From assembly GCA_022818135.1 (NCBI GenBank), contig JAFMSR010000002.1, forward strand, positions 42,287,358 to 42,351,357: a stretch of 64,000 bases of DNA. Reading direction: 5' to 3'. The position numbers and the translations under genes were made by a program. Of the stretch, positions 44,601-47,600 are shown in pieces (within the stretch, counting starts at the first letter, position 1; the number at the start of each line of letters is the position of its first letter). The stretch comes from Saxidomus purpurata. Taxonomy: Eukaryota > Mollusca > Bivalvia > Venerida > Veneridae. The notes beneath the pieces were generated by a model. It was given only the letters and a program-made list of their open reading frames with translations. It ran no database searches and was not told the DNA's origin.

Positions 44601-47600
44601 CTGCTCTGCTTTACTCCTATCATATTTCCCTCTTGTTAAGGGTACTTACATGAAGTTCACAAGAGGGTGGAAATATAGATGAAAGCAGAGCCATCATGTG
44701 ACACTTAAGATGGGAGCCACTCGGAGTGATCTCCCTTCAGTCTAGAGTAGCCTCCCCTCAAATCTTCAAGTCTTGTCATGCCGACATCGAGCCTCCTGCC
44801 GCATTCAAGCTGTTCTTAATCTATGAAGCTACCAACAAGGAAACGGAAAACAGAACAGATGAATATTAGCATAAAATAAAACTAAAAGAAGGCAATTTCT
44901 TTAAAATAATTTCCTTGTTGTACTGTTTACCATACTACTATTTTTTTTACAAACTTGAAAGTTTAAAAGATGAAGTCTTATTATATCAAGGTCTATGAAT
45001 AATTTGAGTCTACTAAGAAAACAGAAAAACAACATTGATGCTGTTTCCAACAAACCTAGACCACGGGAAGCAACATCTGTAGCAATCATGAGTGGAACTC
45101 GACTGTGTTTGAACTCTGAAATGCAGAAAAATGTACTTTAAATAGTTATGCTCGATTAAGTGATTTCTTTTAAATATTTCAGTCAGTATCAGACATTGCA
45201 CAGCATAACAAAAAGCTAAAATGCCATCTTCTAGTCAAAAGAGTTGATACATTATCGCTTATTTTTAAACAAGTCTTTGATAGCTTTCAACTGTCTAAGT
45301 AACAATACATACCACTTAATACCCAATCTCTCTCTGGCTGTGATTTATCACCATGGATACACAATACTGGCCACCTGAAAGAATAAACAAACACCTAGGT
45401 TACTCGGGTAAGTCGTACAATGTAAACAGCAAAAGAATCAATGACCAAACAGCAAGTGGAAACCTCAAACTGAGTGTGAATTCTTGTATGAATTCTTTTA
45501 CCCAGCAGTATTCAATTCATATTCCTTTAAACTTGGACCTTATCACCAGGCTACGAGACCATCTATGCATGTTTCTCAAAAGTATCTTGTTGAACCATTA
45601 GCAAACACACTTATGCCACATGTGCTCAATCCACCTAGCTGTAAATGGGTAGCAGGTACGAGTGTTGGAGAGTGATTCTGTAATCTTCAGATGTTTTTTT
45701 TTTATGAAAAGCTTATCAATAGCTATGAAGATGACATGCAGACTTTGTAAATAACCTACCCATCTCTCTTCATTCTTCTTGCCAACTCGTCGGCTTTTCT
45801 CTTTGTCTCTACAAACATAAGTGTCTTGTTTTCCTTCTCCTGCATTATTTCTTCCAGCAGTTTCATCAACCTGTAGGCAGATGTATGATGTTAGATACTG
45901 TCAGGGCAAACAACAGTATTAAAACTGTCAAGGCAACCAATAGTTAACTCTTGTAACACTGCAAAGTTTATCGTGTTGCAGCACTAGAACAGATCAGTTA
46001 TTTAATCAGCTATTTGAAAGCAGCCTTATTGTCATCATAAGCTAAGAGATGAAAGAATAATAATGTAAGAGCTTCTTACTTCATGTCTTTCTCTGCTTCT
46101 TGACAAACATCAATGATTTGTAGAATGTTATGATTGGCATGGATCTGAAGAGCTCCAATGTTCATCTGTACATAGTCTGAAAGAAACTCTTCTGCTAACT
46201 GTCGCACCTCCTTTGGCCATGTTGCACTCCACATAAGTGTTTGTCTGTCAGGCTGCAATTGAAATTTTCATTTAGTGCATAGAATATCTACTTTAGTTTA
46301 GTTTATACTTGTATTATGCATTTGGCCATCGGCCTTAGGGACAACGTAAAACCTTATCTATAATGCGTCTATTCAACAAGAAATAGCAAGTTAGACATTA
46401 CTGCATATCCAAGATGGGGGTACAGTAGTTGGTTAGAAAGGTAATAGTTGTACTATGAATAAAATGGTTTGTTTAGAGCCAAACAAAAATATATTTTCTG
46501 AGCTAGAAGCATTTTGCGGAAGTAGCTAGGTCTTAGCTTTAATCCAGCAGAAGGAGTTAGGAATCAATCTTTAATCACAAAACTGGCTTACTCTGACTTG
46601 TTCCACTATCTTCCTGATCTGTGGTTCAAAGCCCATGTCTAACATTCTATCAGCTTCATCTAAGACCAGATAGGTACAGCGTCTCAGGTTGGTCTTTCCT
46701 GCTTCTAGGAAATCTATCAGTCTGCCTGGTGTTGCTATACAAATCTCAGCACCTTAAAATTTGCAATCACATTTAGTGCTTTGATTATTTTAAATAAAGT
46801 ACATGACCGGAACTTGAGGGAATATCACCACAATAGTATAGGATATCCTGTAATAACCATGTCTGGCTGCCATACATGGTCTCTGAATGGGAAGTATACT
46901 TCTGCAAGCCCTACTAACAAAAATTCCTTCAACTTTAAACATGAATATAAATAGCCTCTCATCCATTATGAACCATGTCTCAATTATGCTTGATATCATG
47001 CTTGTCATTTCTGTTTTTTTTCTCCAGTTTTATCAAACCCACTATCTTCATTGTCAATAAATCCAACCATTCTCTCCTCAAACGAATAAGATTTGTAGTT
47101 TAACTAACATGTTATACCATCTTTTATAACAACAATTGAAATTGATGACAGTCGGTTTTTTTTACCTCTTTCTAAATCCCTGATTTGTGGACCCTTCGGC
47201 GCTCCGCCATAAACACAACAGTTTCGTATACAGGATGTATTTCCAAACTCGGAACACACTTCTTGTACTTGTTGTGCCAATTCCCTGGTGGGCACAAGGA
47301 CTAGAGCAATTGGACCATCACCTCTTTCCAGGTATGGTTGATGATTGATATGTACAATAGATGGCAACATAAACTGAAAACAAATGGAAATATGTATAAT
47401 AGCTGGTAACAAACTGAAAACAACCAGAACCAGATGTTTTACACTGAATGTATCAAATTCCAAAAAGCGTGTTCTGTCTATTTAAATGTGAACATTATAT
47501 GCATACACGCTACGTCAAAAAGAAAGTTCAGATACAACTGAAAATCCAATCAATTTGTTTCTTTTGTAACAAACATGTTGATGCACATTTCCAATAACTG

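Follow-up and report, generated by a model that had tools for sequence, protein, structure and literature searches.

We analysed a 64,000-nt stretch of the Saxidomus purpurata genome (hereafter, the window), whose minus strand carries, from about 49.8 to 41.7 kb, a DDX5/DDX17 orthologue of which exons 3 to 12 were modelled. The best PDB match of exons 10 and 11 is DDX17 (E = 1.7e-43), followed by yeast DBP2 (2.7e-27), and the protein P0001 of Mercenaria mercenaria matches the joined exons at 85% over 99%. Searching the genome (1.135 Gb, 4,232 contigs) with exons 8–11 returned 25 matches, four of which are the gene's own exons; as the best remaining match is only 48% identical, no near paralogue is seen. 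A single scan of exon 11 against viral contigs gave no match. On the plus strand, positions 58669–59400 hold a 243-aa open reading frame without introns that, by eye, looks like the exosome subunit EXOSC5/RRP46.

Within this gene, intron 10 splits helicase motif V between SRGL and D in phase 1 (Table 1), a placement that the original prediction had already made and that both translation and splice sites confirm. Its authentic donor (TAG/GTTTGT; the slash marks the splice site) has the lowest score, 3.95, among the 11 authentic donors scored in the gene, the others ranging from 5.54 to 9.27; these and all further splice-site scores come from generic simplified matrices and not from a tool. When segments were folded, z fell below −2 in 5 of 69 segments of intron 10, compared with 1 of 142 across ten other introns, and the low-z segments resolve into four distinct structures (44596–44720, 44821–44920, 44296–44395 and 44146–44245). 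Averaged over intron 10, z is 0.27, so there is no overall excess of structure. The last of the four, on the minus strand, is the third strong hairpin of the intron (−33.9 kcal/mol, z −3.85).

Table 1. Features of intron 10 and of the candidate exon within it, with positions in the window
Feature	Position	Strand	Description
Exon 10, donor TAG/GTTTGT	45056..45115	−	donor score 3.95
Intron 10, DDX5/17 gene	43246..45055	−	1,810 nt, phase 1, splits motif V at SRGL/D; translation and splice sites
Exon 11, motif VI	43012..43245	−	protein match and splice sites
Upstream partner CAACAAGGAAA of the pyrimidine tract	44910..44920	−	duplex −16.8 kcal/mol
TGCTAAT, branch-point-like	44865..44871	−	within the acceptor-helix loop; read by eye from the sequence
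Pyrimidine tract TTTCCTTGTTG of the 44828 acceptor	44833..44843	−	paired; perfect 11-bp helix
Candidate poison exon	44650..44828	−	179 nt, not a multiple of 3; acceptor 7.36, donor 9.39; GC 0.469
Donor hairpin, exonic 5' arm	44659..44691	−	fold
Donor-hairpin loop, carrying CAU/GUAAGU	44637..44658	−	22 nt; fold
Donor hairpin, intronic 3' arm	44603..44636	−	fold

By its PDB matches and by P0001, the host of this intron is a DDX5/DDX17/DBP2 orthologue, as would be expected of a regulatory intron of the p68/Dbp2 type. Such an intron was reportedly described for the DBP2 genes of yeasts by Barta and Iggo in 1995. The idea that p68 genes and yeast DBP2 share an intron near this place is also found in print: the available excerpts of one paper (PMC4695336) describe dbp2 intron 2 as conserved in position and length from S. 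cerevisiae to higher eukaryotes, DDX5/p68 included, and as inefficiently spliced, with a helicase-dead dbp2 mutant relieving its retention in S. cerevisiae. According to the same excerpts, the factors regulating dbp2 splicing are not known and autoregulation stays possible. The clam intron would resemble the yeast one in belonging to the same helicase subfamily, in inefficient splicing, in lowered expression upon retention and in possible autoregulation; the yeast intron is published as conserved in position and length as far as animals, in a description that does not go down to the codon (PMC4695336, as excerpted). It differs in that the excerpted yeast work describes retention with nuclear decay (through Mmi1 in fission yeast) and no cassette exon (PMC4695336), whereas the clam intron holds a candidate poison exon inside. 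Vertebrates offer a further parallel, DDX5-family levels being tied to NMD and to intron retention: as far as the excerpts go, Ddx5 introns are retained in granulocytes of all five vertebrates studied (PMC5688624), and Ddx5 lowers Ddx17 via NMD, its own regulation being NMD-controlled (PMC3763533). Unlike in the clam, a comparable exon or hairpin is not described in the excerpts of these two papers.

Protein relatives provide hints on how this intron behaves in other species. Motif V is present in all 120 relatives listed (7,974 were scored), and the D continues in 118 of them. The two other matches listed, P0014 and P0011, run from exon 10 into the intron and end there. P0014 is a 458-aa gene model from Mactra antiquata on a 66.6-Mb contig that continues GLLDNL..., and P0011 is a protein of 467 aa from a 1,981-nt contig (source, jgi) that continues GLFRHL...; read through in the same way, the clam's own intron 10 gives GLLETA.... 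Since a frame of 467 codons on a 1,981-nt contig needs upstream splicing, P0011 probably derives from an RNA in which intron 10 was left unspliced, and it could also be a retrocopy or end at an intronic poly(A) site. In all three bivalves GGT is followed by a Leu codon, which by the genetic code would place a pyrimidine at donor position +3 and a T at +4, off the consensus. The two read-through relatives thus suggest retention of intron 10, and retention of the whole intron (two relatives) is better supported than inclusion of an exon within it (none). We conclude that intron 10 is probably a regulated, inefficiently spliced intron of the p68/Dbp2 type.

The intron contains a candidate poison exon that agrees in outline with the original prediction, which had proposed such an exon on the basis of a GC-rich block, a consensus GTAAGT donor and a surrounding stem-loop. 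GC content is 0.469 for 44650–44828 compared with 0.351 for the intron, and the GTAAGT donor directly follows exon base 44650; at 9.39 on the generic matrix, this donor (CAT/GTAAGT) is the top of 12, comprising the 11 authentic donors and the candidate. The predicted acceptor is what changed. The proposed site at 44814 scores a mere 0.34 on the generic matrix, compared with 7.36 for TAG/C at 44828, and was rejected for its low score and its position. The 44828 site in turn scores lower than 8 of the 11 authentic acceptors scored with that matrix; a TGCTAAT motif lies 37 nt upstream of it, with no AG intervening. The choice of acceptor also alters the reading frame: an open frame of about 35 codons before the stop, as originally described, exists from 44814 only, and from 44828 exon 10 continues A-S-stop. 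With 44828 as the likely acceptor, the stop is therefore the third codon, 171 nt before the exon end, and every acceptor listed in intron 10 leads to an in-frame stop. The candidate combines an acceptor and a donor usable by score (generic matrices) with an in-frame stop well upstream of the junction, a frame-breaking length and, as predicted, a hairpin at its donor, which is unusually strong. A peptide search with exon 10 plus the peptide of the 44814 frame found no homologues, and a peptide search with an antisense open reading frame at 44702–44869 returned no candidates. A limited literature search turned up no description of a poison exon in DDX5 or DDX17; one paper that it retrieved concerns the poison exon of DHX34.

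Pseudo-exons of like strength are common: the window has 9 distinct donors of such exons on its minus strand and another 7 on its plus strand, and a 200-kb genome sample (20 random 10-kb stretches of the clam genome) has 34 strong examples over both strands. It is possible, if rather unlikely, that retention alone is regulated, as in DBP2, the pseudo-exon being inert and the hairpins at most slowing the splicing of the intron. This would fit the abundance of equally strong pseudo-exons, the weak intron-10 donor, the reading of P0011 and P0014 into the intron, and the retention published for the yeast intron and for vertebrate Ddx5 (PMC4695336, PMC5688624, both as excerpted), and would leave unexplained the extreme helices found at both splice sites of one pseudo-exon.

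The first of these helices surrounds the donor. As had been predicted, a stem of about 25 pairs carries the donor in its 22-nt loop, and folding moved the arm boundaries by no more than a nucleotide (Table 1). The hairpin has 25 pairs and an energy of −34.6 kcal/mol (z −4.82; none of 200 shuffles was equally stable), is interrupted by a 7+7 internal loop, and its listed pairs form with probabilities of 0.88–1.0 in contexts from 401 nt to the whole 1,810-nt intron. Ranked by the energy of the stem around them, it comes first among 288 donor-like sites (score of 6 or more, both strands of the window), the runner-up reaching −24.3 kcal/mol; in the genome sample, 0 of 717 donors reach −34.6 kcal/mol and only one reaches −30. 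By fold energy alone, the hairpin is only the sixth-strongest minus-strand cluster in the window, and the whole 240-nt block gives a z of −1.48, with 20 of 200 shuffles folding as well. Donor positions +3 to +6 (AAGU) are partly paired with an exonic ACUU in an apical mini-helix (probability of being unpaired, 0.28–0.48). The suggestion that the hairpin hides the donor does not hold in this form, as the donor lies in the loop and is exposed rather than paired; the hairpin is thus not simply hiding it, and by sequence its effect could run in either direction.

A donor held in a hairpin could also favour an alternative last exon, in which the 44828 acceptor or the retained intron would be used and the RNA would end at an intronic poly(A) site. 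AATAAA occurs in intron 10 at 44247 and 44092, and the two relatives terminate inside the intron; by our own estimate, however, two such hexamers are about the chance level for an AT-rich stretch of 1.8 kb, and we consider this outcome very unlikely.

The second helix involves the acceptor. The pyrimidine tract of the 44828 site is paired along its length with an upstream partner (Table 1), enclosing the branch-point-like motif in its loop. This 11-bp helix is the longest at any of the 749 acceptor-like sites that the window contains, where a single other site has 10 bp, and 11 bp is reached at 2 of 2,007 acceptor-like sites in the genome sample. When both ends of an exon are considered, 0 of 673 acceptor–donor pairs in that sample combine a helix of at least 9 bp with a stem of −20 or better. 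By an ensemble measure, the mean unpairedness of the pyrimidine tract ranks just 88th of 749, so the claim of acceptor structure rests on the perfect helix. Both the acceptor helix and the donor stem persist in wider sequence context. As the acceptor helix lay outside the original finding, it serves as a near-independent test, with the measure picked after the fold was seen, and it strengthens the poison-exon reading. The upstream arm of the acceptor helix resembles the intronic arm of the donor hairpin, which is an alternative partner for the pyrimidine tract (−14.3 kcal/mol, compared with −16.8 kcal/mol for the local duplex).

Could these helices be the traces of an inserted element? Allowing up to 3 mismatches, a 31-nt arm of the donor hairpin has one match in the 1.13-Gb genome, namely itself, and neither the 231-nt block nor the whole intron matches anything but itself (in a search that skips very common words). 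The arm being single, the hairpin belongs to no repeat family and a young repeat is unlikely. A fold-back transposable element (MITE) was rejected as the source of the donor hairpin, as many copies would be expected and arm, block and intron are all single. An alternative that we regard as unlikely is that chance, or a decayed remnant of a fold-back insertion, placed the helices beside splice-like sites by accident. In its favour, each strand of the window has about six hairpins of equal strength, and a second intron-10 hairpin (44288–44391) has terminal inverted repeats (GGGCAGTCTGAAAAA). Allowing up to 2 mismatches, the 15-mer of these repeats gives 4 matches in the window, compared with 0.13 expected, so that remnants of mobile elements may be present. 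The single-copy state of the 31-nt arm, the 231-nt block and the intron, together with the coincidence of two independent extremes at one exon, argues against it. The second hairpin may itself be a MITE, given the near matches of its 15-mer, although a 121-nt query found nothing beyond itself and the genome has no match to the exact pattern of paired repeats.

Very strong hairpins elsewhere in the window, present on both strands, lie at 17821–17980 (−75.4 kcal/mol) and 56841–56980 (−70.1 kcal/mol, with 44-nt arms that are 100% complementary; both values are for the plus strand). They are probably fold-back elements.

We also considered whether the hairpin is a microRNA precursor. By its title, a 2011 paper by Moore reportedly concerns a miRNA in the conserved p68 intron. 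As excerpted, a further study places miR-3064 in intron 11 of human DDX5, an intron of 1,236 nt (PMC4807562). In the window, no Rfam family reached its gathering score, a search that covers known families only; the weak matches in the intron lie away from the donor hairpin (mir-9447 at 44296–44383, 23.9 bits compared with a cut-off of 67), and the stem carries its 7+7 internal loop, which together make a precursor extremely improbable. H/ACA and C/D snoRNA features and those of tRNA-derived SINEs were sought by eye, and none were found.

We therefore return to the poison exon and outline how it might work. Intron 10 would be the clam counterpart of the p68/Dbp2 family's regulatory intron, which is spliced inefficiently, and its own weak donor would slow the splicing of exon 10 to exon 11. 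Two unproductive outcomes would rival normal splicing, namely retention of the intron and inclusion of the 179-nt exon, and either would introduce a premature stop that ends the protein just past the SRGL of motif V and short of motif VI. The exon would normally be restrained by the 11-bp helix, which locks its pyrimidine tract, and by the 25-pair stem, whose loop holds its donor; abundant helicase would open these local helices, the exon would be included and the transcript lost. Exon use, transcript decay and opening by DDX5 itself are steps that we infer. We propose only tentatively, and with slightly more doubt than belief, that splicing makes use of the 179-nt exon and that its helices restrain it. 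That the DDX5 helicase itself opens them is unlikely, perhaps distinctly so. A distinctly unlikely, more elaborate form would have DDX5 gauge its own helicase activity, with two hairpins gating one poison exon as a coincidence sensor that shuts the gene off, since both would open only at a sufficient level of active helicase; at low helicase, the exon would be looped out by pairing of its flanks across it (−14.3 kcal/mol between the pyrimidine tract and the intronic arm of the donor hairpin).

Known systems provide partial precedents. At tau exon 10, Kar et al. in 2011 are said to have found DDX5 acting at a stem-loop of the 5' splice site; this resembles the clam case in that DDX5 is the actor and that the stem-loop sits at the 5' splice site of an exon that is alternatively spliced. 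It differs in concerning another gene and in a stem that reportedly pairs the splice site, whereas the clam site lies in the loop, and in the clam the helicase gene itself would carry the exon, as a poison exon. Excerpts of a paper that cites this work describe DDX5 acting on structured splicing elements (PMC7404189); at the PDCD1 exon 3 stem it lowered inclusion, which is opposite to the direction proposed here and speaks against the assumed sign of helicase opening. With the poison cassette exons of splicing factors (AS-NMD; PMC9895063, as excerpted), the clam candidate shares an early stop, a frame-breaking length and a splicing-regulator gene, and differs from them in that both of its splice sites lie in strong helices and its product is a helicase. 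If the proposal is true, a poison exon with both splice sites gated by hairpins would report helicase activity directly and in a form open to mutation, and would give the feedback of the DBP2 intron an animal counterpart that can be tested.

Finally, the same gene carries a tandem pair of exons on the minus strand, directly upstream of the Q motif (48932–49028 and 48739–48835). They are 97 nt each, separated by 96 nt and equal in phase, with 19 of 33 residues identical, and, judged by frame, they look mutually exclusive. Two relatives, P0060 (Bradybaena) and P0044 (Candidula), are closer to the second exon of the pair than to the first, so that both exon versions may be old in molluscs.
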